Source: a virus. Taken from it: a DNA stretch of 49,322 nucleotides. Under the pieces are notes generated by a model. It did not search any database. It had not been told where the DNA came from and saw nothing but the letters and a program-made list of their open reading frames with translations. Made by a program: the position numbers and the translations under genes. The DNA is taken from IMG/VR virus record IMGVR_UViG_3300010885_028920, positions 1 through 49,322 of that record, one strand, 5' to 3'. Shown piece after piece: positions 24,252 through 49,322 of the stretch. Within the stretch, counting starts at the first letter, position 1, and the number at the start of each line of letters is the position of its first letter.

Positions 24252-24283
24252 ATAAAAAAGGTCAGATTTCTCTAACCTTTTTT
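24252..24283 (-). terminator. hairpin terminator overlapping the HNH gene 3' end
   Basis: AAAAAAGGT-C-AGA (from 24254) pairs with TCT-A-ACCTTTTTT around loop TTTC, with one C/A mismatch. The last codons of the HNH gene lie in the stem. Nearly identical to the terminator at 25011. Confidence 0.8.
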
Positions 24284-24957
24284 ATGGTATTCGATTTTCT
24301 TATATTTTCATCACTCCACAATGGTTGTAAATTAGATAAACACCAACACTTCATAAACTCATTATCCCCAATTTCATTTATCTCGAATGAAGTTATTGGT
24401 AATATATGGTCAACATGCCACTTACCATAATTATCCCACGACATATCACCTGTAAACTTACTCTCTAAATGGTCTATAAGTTGTTGGGGTGAATATTTTA
24501 AAACTTCAAAATAATGTCCATTTTTTTCTACATTATTTTCTTTAAGAACCTGATAAATAGCTGTTCTAAAATTGGAGATTAACTTATATAGGGGGTCATT
24601 AGCTTTACGAGTTCTTTCGTAATTACGTTTGGTCTTTCGTAATTTATCACGATTCTCTTCTCTCCATTTTTTTTGATATTCATTCCACTTTTCCTTATTT
24701 TCTTCATACCATTTTTTATGTTTATCAGATAATTTTTTTTTATTTTTTTCTCTATATTTTTTTTCGGCAACTTTTTTACCCCCTATAAATCGTCTACCGG
24801 AAAGGCCTAATTTAGCATTGTTTTCCCTTAAAACTCTTAAAATAACAGGTTTAGATAAACCAGTTTTTTGTGATATTGATTGTGAACCTAATAATTCGTC
24901 ATTATACATTTTAAGAATATTAATTAATTCTTCTTCAGATGGGATATATTTCTTCAT
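24262..24957 (-). CDS. free-standing HNH homing-type endonuclease
   Basis: 231 residues from ATG 24957. An N-terminal helix-turn-helix-like segment (SQSISQKTGLSKPVILRVLR), a long Lys/Glu-rich linker, and an HNH nuclease core: YGKWHVDHILPITSF (about 186-200) and CWCLSNLQPLWSDENIRKSN at the end (H-x-DH, N and the terminal N/K of the fold). Such genes move between phage genomes as homing endonucleases. It lies between a small gene and the major capsid gene, flanked by two nearly identical terminators, as expected for a cassette insertion. Confidence 0.85.
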   Translation of the reverse strand: MKKYIPSEEELINILKMYNDELLGSQSISQKTGLSKPVILRVLRENNAKLGLSGRRFIGGKKVAEKKYREKNKKKLSDKHKKWYEENKEKWNEYQKKWREENRDKLRKTKRNYERTRKANDPLYKLISNFRTAIYQVLKENNVEKNGHYFEVLKYSPQQLIDHLESKFTGDMSWDNYGKWHVDHILPITSFEINEIGDNEFMKCWCLSNLQPLWSDENIRKSNTIKKVREI

Positions 24958-24961
24958 AATA

Positions 24962-24969
24962 ATAAATAT
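24962..24969 (-). promoter_or_regulatory. ATATTTAT motif (candidate late promoter)
   Basis: Minus strand TTATATTTATTATTATG, 4 nt before the HNH gene ATG. Confidence 0.45.
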
Positions 24970-25010
24970 AATACATACGACCAAAAAATCAACTATTACT
25001 TAAAGAAACA

Positions 25011-40045: not shown

Positions 40046-40076
40046 TTGGATAATTCAAAACGATGAATTACCTTTG
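40046..40076 (+). promoter_or_regulatory. Bacteroidota-type housekeeping promoter of clpC-like gene
   Basis: TTG (40046-40048), 20-nt spacer, TACCTTTG (40069-40076), then 16 nt to ATG 40093. An upstream in-frame ATG at 40063 lies within the promoter, so it is not the start. Confidence 0.75.
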
Positions 40077-40092
40077 TAAAAAATTCTTTTAT

Positions 40093-42114
40093 ATGACAGA
40101 ACATTTTGATGAAAACGATGGATTAGGAAAATCCAAATCAAAACAAACATCCGCATCTGAAACACCAGTGTTGGATAATTTTAGTAAAGATTTGATGAAA
40201 CTTGCATCGGAAGGAAAGTTAGATCCTGTGATCGGACGTGAGAGAGAAATTGATAGGATTGCTCAAATCTTATCAAGGAGAAAAAAGAACAACCCTATCA
40301 TTATTGGTGAACCAGGTTGTGGAAAAACCGCAATCGTTGAAGGTCTTGCAATGAAGATTTTTAAGGGTGAATGTCCGAGAAGTTTGTTAGACAAACGAAT
40401 TGTTCTTTTGGATTTAACATCAATTGTTGCAGGAACAAAATACCGAGGACAATTTGAAGAACGATTAAAAGTTATTTTGGAGGAAATCACCAATAACAAA
40501 AACATTGTAGTATTCATTGACGAAATTCATACATTAGTTGGTGCGGGAAACTCATCAGGATCTATGGACGCATCCAACATTTTCAAACCCGCACTCGCAA
40601 GAGGTGAATTACAATGTATTGGTGCAACAACATTGGATGAATACCGAACAAACTTTGAAAAGGATGGGGCGTTGGAAAGAAGATTTCAAAAGATTGTGGT
40701 AGATGCACCAAACAAAGATCAGACGTTAGAGATTCTAAAACAATCAAAGGACAAATATGAAGATTATCACAAGGTAATTTATTCAGATGAAATTTTGAAC
40801 TTGTGTGTAAATCTTGCGGATCGTTACATTACCGATCGTGAGTTTCCTGATAAAGCATTTGACATTCTTGATGAAGTGGGTGCAAAAAGTCAGATTGAAA
40901 TTAAGATGCCCGAAGCAATTGAAAAACTCAAAGACCAAGCCGTCGAAATCAAGAGATTAAAACAAAATGTTGTTAAACAACAAGATTATGAACAAGCGGC
41001 AGAACTTAGAGACCGAGAAAGAAAGATCATTTCCAAATTAGATGAAGAGAAGAAAAAATTTGAAGGTGAAATGAATTTACACAAGAAGGTTATCATCCCT
41101 GAACTTGTTTTGGAAGTTGTTTCCAATATGACCAAGATTCCGGTAAATAAACTTAACTTGGATGACAAGAATTCATTATTGAGTTTGGAAACCGATTTGT
41201 CTCAATCAGTTATTGGACAATCTGAGGCTGTTACCAAAATTGCAAAAGCAATTAGAAGAAATCGTCTTGGAATTAAAGACCCAAATCGTCCGATTGGATC
41301 ATTTATCTTCTTAGGTTCTACCGGTGTCGGAAAAACCCACTTAGCCAAACAATTGGCAAGACAGGTATTTGGATCACCTGACGCATTGATTAGAATCGAT
41401 ATGTCAGAATATCAAGAAAAACACACCATCTCAAAACTAATAGGTTCTCCTCCTGGTTATGTTGGACACGATGAAGGTGGTCAATTAACTGAACAAGTTA
41501 AAAATAAACCATATTCTGTAATCTTATTTGATGAAGTAGAAAAGGCAAATAAAGAAATCTTTAATACCTTACTTCAGATGTTAGATGAAGGACATTTGAC
41601 AGATAGTCTTGGAAGAAAGATCAATTTCAAAAATACATTGATCATTATGACAACCAATCTCGGAGCGAAGAAAGTACAAGAATTTGGAACAGGTATCGGT
41701 TTCTCAACCTCAACCTCAAGTAAATCAATGATTGATGAGAGAAAGAAAGATATCATCACCAAAGAACTTAAAAACTTCTTCTCACCTGAGTTCTTAAACC
41801 GAGTTGATGAAATGGTTGTCTTTAATTCTTTGAATCACGAAGATATTGTTAAAATTGTTGATGTTGAAATGAATAAATTGATTTCACGTCTTTTGGAGAT
41901 GAAATACAAATTCACATACGACACGTCAATCGTTGAGCATATCTCAAAAGTTGGTTACGATGAACAATACGGAGCAAGACCTCTAAAGAGAGCAATCCAA
42001 GATGAGATTGAAGACCTAATCTCAGAAGAAGTTTTGAAAGGTTCCGTCAAGGAGAATTCCAAATACAAACTAACCATCAAAGATGATCGGGTAACAATAA
42101 CAAAAGGACGATAA
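40093..42114 (+). CDS. ClpC-like Hsp100 unfoldase lacking the N domain
   Basis: 673 residues with two AAA+ modules. D1: Walker A GEPGCGKT (72-79), Walker B VVFIDEIHT (about 139). A UVR-like segment QQDYEQAAELRDRE (about 296-309) lies between modules, typical of ClpC. D2: GSTGVGKT (408-415), ILFDEVEKA (about 477), sensor-2 region YGARPLKRAIQ. The tripeptide IGF (about 534), in the ClpP-docking loop position, is present, so it could feed host ClpP. The usual N-terminal repeat domain (about 140 residues, adaptor binding) is missing; residues 1-45 are short and charged. No clpP is in the window. Host-type promoter and terminator make it a single-gene unit. Confidence 0.9.
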   Translation: MTEHFDENDGLGKSKSKQTSASETPVLDNFSKDLMKLASEGKLDPVIGREREIDRIAQILSRRKKNNPIIIGEPGCGKTAIVEGLAMKIFKGECPRSLLDKRIVLLDLTSIVAGTKYRGQFEERLKVILEEITNNKNIVVFIDEIHTLVGAGNSSGSMDASNIFKPALARGELQCIGATTLDEYRTNFEKDGALERRFQKIVVDAPNKDQTLEILKQSKDKYEDYHKVIYSDEILNLCVNLADRYITDREFPDKAFDILDEVGAKSQIEIKMPEAIEKLKDQAVEIKRLKQNVVKQQDYEQAAELRDRERKIISKLDEEKKKFEGEMNLHKKVIIPELVLEVVSNMTKIPVNKLNLDDKNSLLSLETDLSQSVIGQSEAVTKIAKAIRRNRLGIKDPNRPIGSFIFLGSTGVGKTHLAKQLARQVFGSPDALIRIDMSEYQEKHTISKLIGSPPGYVGHDEGGQLTEQVKNKPYSVILFDEVEKANKEIFNTLLQMLDEGHLTDSLGRKINFKNTLIIMTTNLGAKKVQEFGTGIGFSTSTSSKSMIDERKKDIITKELKNFFSPEFLNRVDEMVVFNSLNHEDIVKIVDVEMNKLISRLLEMKYKFTYDTSIVEHISKVGYDEQYGARPLKRAIQDEIEDLISEEVLKGSVKENSKYKLTIKDDRVTITKGR

Positions 42115-43029: not shown

Positions 43030-44790
43030 TTATTGATCAAAGTCAGAAAATAACGTTGGGTTGTAAATAAAATCAATAAATCCTTGGAATGTTGGTTCCA
43101 TTCTTTTTACCTCACCATCTGACTTTCTAATCATATCAAAAAGTACTGTACCTTTTGTGTTATCAAGGTAATTGATACGAAACGAATATTTATCACTCCT
43201 TGGTAAATCGTACGTACGTCTAAGTTTATAGTTGTTTTTGTTTAAGAAATTAACAAACTCTACGGAGTCGGGATTTGATGTTTCCTCTAAAGATTCTAGA
43301 ATATCATCCAAATAACTTTCAATATAATTATTAAATTCTTCTTCATCAAACTCACCTTGGTATTCGTATATATTATCTGAAGAAAAATCTAACTCACCAT
43401 CCAAAAAAGTGTTTAACATCCTAATTAAAGATTTTTTCTCAGACTTGGATTGTTTGAATTTGATGATTAACATCGGAGCATAAATTCTAAAAGCCCAAAC
43501 ATCACTTCTCCTATTATCATCTTTAATATATTCAAAACCTATTTTTTTCATTTCACTAATCACAGATTGATTCACTTGTTCGATGGCACCTTCTTCATAC
43601 GCACGATCATTTAATATCGTATATTCGGAAACTATTCTATCTATTTTATCTTCAAACATATTATCTAACTTATCGGCAAAATCACTAATTAAAACAGTTG
43701 AAATATATTCATTCGGGTCTGAGGAAATTTCAGGTGAAATATATGATGCAATTTTCTTTAGTTTTTCATAGTTATCACCATTAAAATATCTAAAAACGTA
43801 TCCATCACGATAGTCATAATTACCATCGGTTTGTTCAATACCATAATAAGAACCAAGCGTAGCTTGTATAAAACGTTTCTCATACTCTTCTTCAACACCA
43901 AATACTTCAATAATTTCATCCAAATCCAATTTTACAACAACCTCTGGAAAATTTTGACTTGTCATATTATCTGTATTCCTATATAAGAACAGATTATCAG
44001 CGGTTTCCCAATACAAAACTAAATTTGAATAATCTTCAGAATTATCAGTTAAATCATCAATCAATTCAGATAAATCAGGAAATTGTTTGTGTAATTCTTT
44101 TAATTCAATTTTTCGGTCTTTAGAGTCAAAAACTTCAATATCCCTACCACCATTGGAAACAAATAATGCGTATTTACCATCAGGTACTCCTTTTTTAATG
44201 AAATAATATAACTTACCACTCTTAAAATACGCATCAAATTGTCCTGAGTCAGTACTAACGGTACACCATTTGGTCTCAGCCCCATAATAACAAGACGATT
44301 TTATTGTCATTGGTTGGACAACTAAGATTTTATCGTCTTCAAAAATTTTATTAGCGTCTTTTTTAATTTCCTTTTCTTGTTCCGATTTACTCTTATTCAT
44401 CTCTAAAAAGTTTCTTATTCTGAATAAGTCGTTTGATGAATAACTATTGATATCTTTCGGTGCTTTCATTGCACGTTCAATATCTGATAATGGATACTTA
44501 TCATGAATTTTTTCTAAAATCTCAGGAGTTAGTCTAACATAATTTCTTTCAAAATATGGTAAATCTCTATACCAACTTAAAATAAGATCAAATTGTGTCG
44601 GTGATAAATATGGTCCACCATAAAATTCAAAATCATTCACTAAGTTTTTAGCAATCCAACTAGAATATTTACCTTCAGGAGTATCAAAATCAAATATTCT
44701 CTTTATCGTATTACTAGCATTTGGGTATTTACCGATTAACTCAGACATTACTTTGTCTTTCTTACTCTCTAAAATAATTTTTTTACTCAT
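43030..44790 (-). CDS. large hypothetical phage protein with KWCT motif
   Basis: 586 residues. Residues about 165-235 carry CYYGAETKWCTVSTDSGQFD then KLYYFIKK, GKYALFV and FDSKDR, a small domain seen in uncharacterised proteins of T4-like marine phages. The rest is acidic and helical with no recognised fold. The N terminus MSKKIILESKKDKVMSELI is a short basic-acidic leader. GTATTTAT variants upstream suggest late expression. Function unknown; perhaps an internal or accessory virion protein. Confidence 0.6.
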   Translation of the reverse strand: MSKKIILESKKDKVMSELIGKYPNASNTIKRIFDFDTPEGKYSSWIAKNLVNDFEFYGGPYLSPTQFDLILSWYRDLPYFERNYVRLTPEILEKIHDKYPLSDIERAMKAPKDINSYSSNDLFRIRNFLEMNKSKSEQEKEIKKDANKIFEDDKILVVQPMTIKSSCYYGAETKWCTVSTDSGQFDAYFKSGKLYYFIKKGVPDGKYALFVSNGGRDIEVFDSKDRKIELKELHKQFPDLSELIDDLTDNSEDYSNLVLYWETADNLFLYRNTDNMTSQNFPEVVVKLDLDEIIEVFGVEEEYEKRFIQATLGSYYGIEQTDGNYDYRDGYVFRYFNGDNYEKLKKIASYISPEISSDPNEYISTVLISDFADKLDNMFEDKIDRIVSEYTILNDRAYEEGAIEQVNQSVISEMKKIGFEYIKDDNRRSDVWAFRIYAPMLIIKFKQSKSEKKSLIRMLNTFLDGELDFSSDNIYEYQGEFDEEEFNNYIESYLDDILESLEETSNPDSVEFVNFLNKNNYKLRRTYDLPRSDKYSFRINYLDNTKGTVLFDMIRKSDGEVKRMEPTFQGFIDFIYNPTLFSDFDQ

Positions 44791-44803: not shown

Positions 44804-44834
44804 TTGTTAATCTCAGAATAGATATTTATCTTTG
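44804..44834 (+). promoter_or_regulatory. tmRNA promoter, overlapping ATATTTAT
   Basis: TTG (44804-44806), 20-nt spacer, TATCTTTG (44827-44834). The mature tmRNA begins 22 nt further on, leaving a leader for RNase P. An ATATTTAT motif (44822-44829) overlaps the -7 element, so the RNA could be made early and late. Confidence 0.7.
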
Positions 44835-44946
44835 TATTAGTTCTTTGAAATTATATGGGGGTGACATGGAATCGACTGGTAGAATAAAGCAATAAATGCA
44901 TTTCGAGGCTGAATTAACCTTGTAAAACTGATTCAAAACAATAGAT

Positions 44947-45012
44947 GGCGACGTATTCGCAAACATGGAAACTTTAGGTCTTCTTAAAGGTTCTGAAGTG
45001 TCTGTAGCCTAA
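44947..45012 (+). other. tmRNA tag reading frame
   Basis: After AATAGAT, aligned with E. coli AATAGTC, the likely resume codon is GGC (44947), about 12 nt after PK1. The frame begins GDVFANMETL, continues 11 more codons to EVSVA, and stops at TAA 45010-45012: 21 codons. A shorter version would start at GCA 44959, where GCAAAC is as in E. coli; the frame is the same. The end SVA differs from the ALAA end usual in Bacteroidota. Confidence 0.7.
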
Positions 45013-45215
45013 TTGGTTACAACACACCGGGTCGGTCAGGACATATACCTTGGAACAGGAGTCCGTTGTTGTAGTTTCGGTTAATACTCTAAAAATTAAC
45101 CACCACTTTTGTCTGTTTATATGGAAAATGAAAATGGAATATTTCGGAATGTTGAGAACCGACATTGACCTATAAGTGTAGTATGTTATTGGTTTGTCTA
45201 AGCAGGACGAGGGTT

Positions 45216-45439
45216 TAATTTCGGACCCATCTCATAGTGATGTGAGATTAAAAATCGGATGAATTCAGGGGACTCTAAGTTCGTAAGAATATGACAATCC
45301 TGAGCCAAGCCTAGTAGGAATAGGAAGGTGCAGAGACTATCGGGTGTTACACGCTTGTAACGTAATACCGACTTGAGCGTCCGACATCTTGATAAGATGA
45401 TGATATAGTCCAAACATTATGGAAACATGATGAGTTAAG
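45216..45439 (+). other. group I intron in the tmRNA T-loop
   Basis: 224 nt with no reading frame. P1: exon GGGTT (45211-45215) pairs with GACCC (45224-45228), giving U-G at the splice site. P10: TTCG (45220-45223) pairs with 3' exon CGAA (45440-45443). P2: ATCTCA/TGAGAT (45229-45234, 45243-45248). P4: TTCAGG with CCTGAG (45264-45269, 45299-45304). R segment GGTGCAGAGACTA; P7: GACTA/TAGTC (45335-45339, 45406-45410). P3: TCGGA/TCCGA (45255-45259, 45380-45384). P8: CATCTT/AAGATG. P9: CATTATG, GAAA, CATGATG. The last base is G45439. An extra stem between P7 and P3' suggests an IA-type intron. Confidence 0.9.
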
Positions 45440-45463
45440 CGAATCCCTCCACCTCCACCAAAT

Positions 45464-45493
45464 AAAAAAAGGTCAGGCGCCTGACCTTTTTTT
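45464..45493. terminator. bidirectional palindromic terminator
   Basis: GGTCAGGCGCCTGACC (45471-45486), a perfect palindrome with A and T runs outside. It ends the tmRNA transcript and, on the other strand, the endolysin transcript. Confidence 0.85.
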
Positions 45494-46055
45494 ATTTACT
45501 AAAAATACCTTTAAAAATGTTAAAATTCTTGTAAGGTTCTATTAATTTTTCAAAATCTTCAGGAGTTACAATCTGTGATAAAATACCTAAATCTTTAGAT
45601 TTTTCACTACTTGTTGGCTTGTTGTAGTACTTATTAAGATAATTAGACGGATTATATGGATTACCAGCAATATCCTCAATTTCAAAATGTAAATGAGCGC
45701 CTTTTGATGAACCTCTATGAGGATCATTTGGTCCTCCACCACTTAATCCGATTACCTCACCAGCCTTTACCATCTTACCTTTAGGTACTTTAATGTCTCG
45801 TAAATGACAATATTTGGTATAAAAAGTATTACCATTTTGTTTGTGTTTTATCCTAACAAAACCACCACAATTTTTTTTATCTTGATATTCTGAACTAGTA
45901 ATTTCACCATCAGCTGCGGCTAATACAGGTGTTCCTGATTTAACCAAAATATCAATACCTTCATGTTTATGACCCTTTCTTGGGGCTCCAAATTGTTGTC
46001 CCTTAGACGGGTTTGGGATTGGTACTCCAACTGGGTTTATTATGTTAAAATTCAT
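45492..46055 (-). CDS. M23-family (LytM) endolysin
   Basis: 187 residues. Zinc endopeptidase with HEGIDI (His about 31, Asp about 35) and HLHFE (about 121) metal ligands, the M23 pattern, preceded by GAPRKGHK. It cuts peptidoglycan cross-bridges. No signal peptide is visible, so it would need a holin. ATG overlaps the stop of the membrane-protein gene upstream, so the pair forms a lysis cassette. The C-terminal 50 residues are helical and could bind a partner. Confidence 0.85.
   Translation of the reverse strand: MNFNIINPVGVPIPNPSKGQQFGAPRKGHKHEGIDILVKSGTPVLAAADGEITSSEYQDKKNCGGFVRIKHKQNGNTFYTKYCHLRDIKVPKGKMVKAGEVIGLSGGGPNDPHRGSSKGAHLHFEIEDIAGNPYNPSNYLNKYYNKPTSSEKSKDLGILSQIVTPEDFEKLIEPYKNFNIFKGIFSK

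Positions 46056-48482: not shown

Positions 48483-49322
<840 letters not shown>

Follow-up and report, generated by a model that had tools for sequence, protein, structure and literature searches.

The window, by which we mean the whole 49,322-nt stretch of DNA that was analyzed, carries on its plus strand a tmRNA gene in two exons (44857-45215 and 45440-45460) separated by a 224-nt group I intron (45216-45439). A preliminary description of this DNA had placed a tmRNA at 44857-45460 and proposed a search with Rfam covariance models, and this search (cmscan) matched both the tmRNA model RF00023 at 44857-45234 (67.7 bits, E 2.5e-24) and the group I model RF00028 at 45205-45432 (98.3 bits, E 2.7e-24). 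ARAGORN called no tmRNA in the intact window; after in silico removal of 45216-45439, it called a 380-nt tmRNA with acceptor stem, D-loop, T-arm, and tag frame, which together with the Rfam match bears out the placement. Based on RF00023 and ARAGORN after in silico splicing, the 5' exon comprises the 5' strand of the acceptor, the D-loop, PK1, the tag frame, the 5' strand of the T-stem, and the first two T-loop bases, while the 3' exon, according to ARAGORN on the same spliced RNA, contributes the remaining T-loop, T-stem, and acceptor 3' strand together with an encoded CCA end. The spliced RNA has a tRNA-like domain of acceptor, D-loop, and T-arm without an anticodon stem-loop, in which the T-stem is GAGGG/CCCTC and the T-loop TT^CGAAT, with the intron at ^. 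The acceptor stem has 7 bp (GC, GC, GT, GC, GC, TA, GC) and includes G3.U70, the pair through which AlaRS recognizes alanine-type acceptors. The tag frame (44947-45012), as called by ARAGORN on the spliced RNA, starts with GGC at 44947, encodes GDVFANMETLGLLKGSEVSVA in 21 codons, ends with TAA, and is kept in relatives.

Upstream of the gene, a pattern scan of the window found the promoter candidate TTG-N20-TATCTTTG at 44804-44834 (plus strand), the consensus behind it being what we take to be the Bacteroidota promoter. The window contains four TTG-N20-TAnnTTTG sites versus 1.95 expected, a number reached in 17 of 100 shuffles, and each of the four sits just upstream of a gene, in one case that of the tmRNA. 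Downstream, at 45463-45495 (plus strand), lies a terminator-like 15-bp hairpin (-17.5 kcal/mol, z -5.5) with A and T runs on its flanks, which was absent from the output of a simple terminator scan. The head and packaging genes match the PHROGs terminase, portal, major head protein, and protease. With one exception, from a 484-kb metagenomic phage, no terminase comes closer than those of Flavobacterium phage immuto, at 27% identity. The promoter motif and the 27%-identical terminase suggest that the host probably belongs to Bacteroidota. We note that the same region as the tmRNA also holds a phage-encoded Clp-type ATPase (40063-42114, plus strand; PHROG 'ATP-dependent protease') and an ORF resembling the C-terminal part of DnaK (48483-49247, minus strand); whether phage tagging and a phage Clp are connected deserves attention.

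The intron lies between nucleotides 2 and 3 of the T-loop, i.e. at position 3 in a numbering that we took by inference from a figure legend of a 2025 survey of intron-form tmRNAs (PMC11915505). The 5' exon ends with GAGGGTT and the 3' exon starts with CGAATCCCTC. In P1 (45211-45228), the exon sequence GGGUU (45211-45215) pairs with the guide GACCC (45224-45228), giving a U.G pair at the 5' splice site; in P10 (45220-45223), the UUCG just 5' of the guide forms 4 bp with CGAA of the 3' exon (45440-45443); and the intron ends with a G at 45439 (omega-G). The P3-P9 core with the P3/P7 pseudoknot is present. Specifically, P3 pairs 45255-45261 with 45378-45384 and encloses P4-P6, the 5' strand of P7, and P7.1/P7.2; P7, the guanosine-binding helix, pairs 45335-45339 with 45406-45410; and P2 (45229-45248), P8 (45385-45399), and P9 (45415-45432, with a GAAA loop) are hairpins. 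By inspection of P7.1/P7.2, additional helices located between the 5' strand of P7 and the 3' strand of P3, we assign the intron to subgroup IA. No endonuclease gene is present in 45216-45439, the longest listed ORF being 71 aa and antisense.

As a test of this structure, which was drawn by hand and has 58 pairs, we used an alignment of 15 copies that starts at the guide. Across these 15 homologues, 95.3% of cells were paired versus 75.9 (sd 1.0) in shuffles, the covariation score was 0.517 versus 0.170 in shuffles, and 36 of the 58 pairs changed on both sides; as a control, sliding the partner columns by 1-3 lowered pairing to 29-45%. Two-sided changes support P2 (six of seven pairs), P4, P6a, P7.2 (five of five), P8, and P9 (seven of seven) well. 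P6 and P7 are invariant in the 15 copies, so that P7 is conserved without covariation support. Because MAFFT misaligned the exon, P1 and P10 were counted outside the alignment; in 20 distinct homologous copies, every P1 pair forms and P10 has 1 to 6 pairs. It is important to note that the conservation of P1 is not independent evidence because the search pattern fixed part of the guide, whereas the remaining structure is independent. The preliminary description had put a 224-nt insert between the TT and CGAAT of the T-loop, which proved exact to the base, and had proposed P1 with its U-G pair, P10, and the terminal G, all of which fit by pairing; P2, P4, P7, P8, and P9, of which most covary across homologues; and the absence of an endonuclease gene, which also holds.

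The same intron is widespread in phage tmRNA genes. Two pattern scans of IMG/VR returned 49 contigs in total and, beyond the window, 31 of these carry the same intron at the same site in an automated splice-site test that demanded a perfect T-stem, a C-R-A loop start, and a final G; nearly all other scan contigs look, by reading, like tmRNA 3' ends. There are two clear exceptions: L023, whose match falls outside any T-arm, and L024, in which the gene is a tRNA. In L113, L118, and L152, restoring the T-loop would require an intron that ends with A, not G. The nearest relative of the window is L022, whose intron and exon are 94% and 93% identical, respectively. Among named phages, the 735-kb phage LR756501 has the same intron at the tmRNA site (by reading) and the crAss-like phage cr128_1 (MT774392) has an 869-nt copy with an ORF inside, in a record without tmRNA annotation. 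The tmRNA of cr128_1 was recognized by reading of the acceptor stem, tag, and T-arm, and ARAGORN called no tmRNA for this gene even after in silico splicing. Three further searches returned nothing: blastn with the tmRNA 5' exon alone, megablast of half of the window against phage records, and a search of IMG/VR with the neighboring protein (43030-44790) as bait.

The tags of the window and of seven relatives (L003, L022, L118, L021, L097, L002, and L019) are 21-22 aa long and share a pattern of roughly G[DNE]xxAxxxxxGxxxxxEVxVA, unlike host-type tags, which end in ALAA. In close tag pairs, pS and pN were 0.33 versus 0.02, 0.24 versus 0.04, and 0.13 versus 0.02; because pS is well above pN, the tag peptide itself is under selection, and it may have a role beyond marking proteins for degradation. 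Another type of phage tag, about 29-33 aa long and with a conserved EDMMSIPTS, was found in L151 (1105-1194), L152 (644-745), and L082, one of the three being in the 735-kb phage LR756501; in the case of L151, ARAGORN assigns a tag that differs from the EDMMSIPTS-type reading.

Because related phages have intronless tmRNAs, i.e. an empty site (L002, L003, L004, L010, and L013), and because the introns of L113 and L118 are 96% identical while their tmRNA bodies are only 49% identical, we conclude that the intron moves between tmRNA genes; indeed, the tmRNA body of L118 groups with that of the intronless L003 (support 100/99). Intron and exon distances nevertheless correlate (Mantel r 0.58, with none of 2000 permutations as high), supporting that transfer is superimposed on descent and that much of the inheritance is vertical. 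Long copies of 667-869 nt carry homing-type genes, including LAGLIDADG genes in the introns of L099 and L108 (Pfam) and, by reading, HNH-like genes in those of L086, L098, and L110. With no homing gene in the window copy itself, its mobility is proposed by analogy with its relatives. Elsewhere in the window, an ORF at 24262-24984 (minus strand) reads as a free-standing HNH endonuclease with an HVDHILP motif, without a Pfam match at E 0.001, and may target intronless genes in trans.

The intron also occurs outside tmRNA. In L024 (484-706, corresponding to 2362-2584 of L151), it splits the T-loop of a tRNA-Ala(UGC) at the same place, and ARAGORN called no tRNA in the unspliced and tRNA-Ala in the spliced sequence. 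This copy is sister to the tmRNA intron of L082 (99/99) and nested among tmRNA introns, and the tmRNA on the same phage contig is intronless; as judged from these sequences, the intron lineage appears to have entered a tRNA-Ala T-loop at least once. We note that an ORF read as a GIY-YIG endonuclease (L151 1457-2107) lies between the tmRNA and the tRNA-Ala, just upstream of the latter.

Intron-form tmRNAs are known from bacteria. The preliminary description had stated that T-loop introns occur in a few bacteria and phages; that the kind is known is correct, while "a few" is not, as the unique intron-form tmRNAs listed in PMC11915505 number 883 and span 21 phyla, the intron always being in the T-loop. 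The survey gives intron positions 2, 3, 7, and 8, with all position-3 cases in Bacteroidia and HEGs in 4.1%; its main text reports 79 phage tmRNAs and is silent on introns in them. As described there, the Bacteroidia position-3 tmRNAs resemble the window gene in having a T-loop group I intron, mostly without HEG, with U at -1 and a terminal G and, by reading of the eight numbered loop positions, at the same loop site; in contrast, the window gene is phage-borne and its 21-aa tag does not end in ALAA. The Clostridium botulinum intron is likewise a group I intron in tmRNA, for which self-splicing was shown (PMC2729099, citing Williams 2002), but is 287 nt long and, per the survey's description, belongs to the earlier-known class at loop position 7. 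Introns of phage terminase, DNA polymerase, and psbA have the same general group I core, with blastn matches over core pieces, but lie in or beside protein genes whereas the window intron is in a structural RNA; a 2014 review (PMC3984707) noted that, although phage tRNAs are numerous, every phage intron known by then was in a protein gene. Finally, a related core (by BLAST or our model R1) is present in tRNA(CAU) introns of Klebsiella phage Muenster (L121) and of Bacteroidia (L128, L129, and L130), the genes being identified by reading; these introns differ in lying in the anticodon loop and in having another guide sequence. In Muenster (MT708547), the intron splits an unannotated tRNA(CAU) (L121 1148-1445), and four further Klebsiella phage records match its core. 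Intron-form tmRNAs thus being an established kind, the window gene is a further example of them, and it is the phage side that adds to this.

To look for cellular copies, we searched for P7 plus GCGAATCCC in 84,980 genomes of bacteria and archaea; none of the 52 matches had the T-arm exon pair plus the CCA end, i.e. the exact phage form was unseen in these genomes. Model R1 matched in 14 of 395 Bacteroidia genomes, the tRNA(CAU) introns of L128, L129, and L130 being among the matches. Another match (L127) is a tmRNA with the tag GNNQFALAA and the intron at the same loop site; this intron is only 56% identical to that of the window and forms a long branch in the intron tree.

The explanation that in our view very probably accounts for these observations, as read from the sequences, is that of a selfish, site-specific ribozyme lineage residing in phage tmRNA, with splicing restoring the T-loop. 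The phage, T4-like and probably infecting a member of Bacteroidota, would carry a tmRNA gene that forms a unit by itself, between a promoter and a terminator of its own; after transcription, the 224-nt endonuclease-free group IA-type intron would fold, P1 and P10 would align the two T-loop halves, and guanosine-driven self-excision would restore GGGTTCGAATCCC. The spliced tmRNA would be usable by host AlaRS (via G3.U70), EF-Tu, and SmpB, and the intron would be neutral to the phage. The conserved T-loop would be a safe target for the intron, which would spread between phage tmRNAs by means of the homing genes of some copies or by ordinary phage recombination, with the homing genes being lost again and a tRNA-Ala T-loop having been entered at least once.

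We also considered that the intron is a regulatory switch, in which the splicing rate tracks infection stage or guanosine level and sets tmRNA activation, as the preliminary description had supposed for the onset of trans-translation. Geometrically, bases 45211-45213 are needed by both P1 and the T-stem, so that unspliced RNA cannot form the two helices together and a mature T-arm needs splicing, and the intron is partly co-inherited with the tmRNA (Mantel r 0.58). However, the tmRNAs of related phages have a similar tag but lack the intron, the intron itself passes from one tmRNA to another and into a tRNA-Ala, several copies contain homing-type genes, and the compact window intron consists entirely of parts of the ribozyme core without an added sensor domain; the supposition is therefore without support, and a switch is unlikely, with the intronless siblings, homing genes, transfer, and tRNA jump fitting a selfish element. 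Even less likely, and by a clear measure, is that the intron has decayed and lost splicing, leaving a dead tmRNA gene: while no endonuclease is there to keep the intron mobile, the core helices, U.G pair, final G, and P10 are all intact and, unlike for a dead gene, L022 keeps both the intron (94%) and the tag (pS 0.13, pN 0.02). The window being a metagenomic virus record, an assembly chimera was considered and dropped because the junctions are common to independent contigs, namely 31 others in the automated test, and to GenBank phage records by reading; with E-values near 1e-24 standing against chance resemblance, we regard either as scarcely credible.

Returning to the selfish lineage, its main interest is that of a widespread, moving phage lineage that has changed gene type once, more than that of a single gene. 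It offers natural pairs (intron present or absent, homing gene present or absent, tmRNA versus tRNA) for following ribozyme invasion of structural RNA and is a plausible vehicle for carrying a ribozyme to bacteria. Because ARAGORN was blind to the window gene until the intron was removed, intron-form phage tmRNAs are probably undercounted; of note, ARAGORN was the program by which tmRNAs were typed in a survey covering 18,146 phage genomes (PMC9004378). Our broader suggestion is tentative, and we lean slightly against it: that a T-loop intron lineage dedicated to phages circulates among their tmRNAs, sometimes jumps to tRNAs, is a possible source of the Bacteroidia position-3 introns, and is missed by standard finders, with phage tmRNA counts being too low. 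As a separate observation, the viral contigs also hold a Pistol ribozyme (L018 5471-5534), a Hatchet ribozyme (L105 3304-3454), and a GOLLD RNA (L008 5021-5439).
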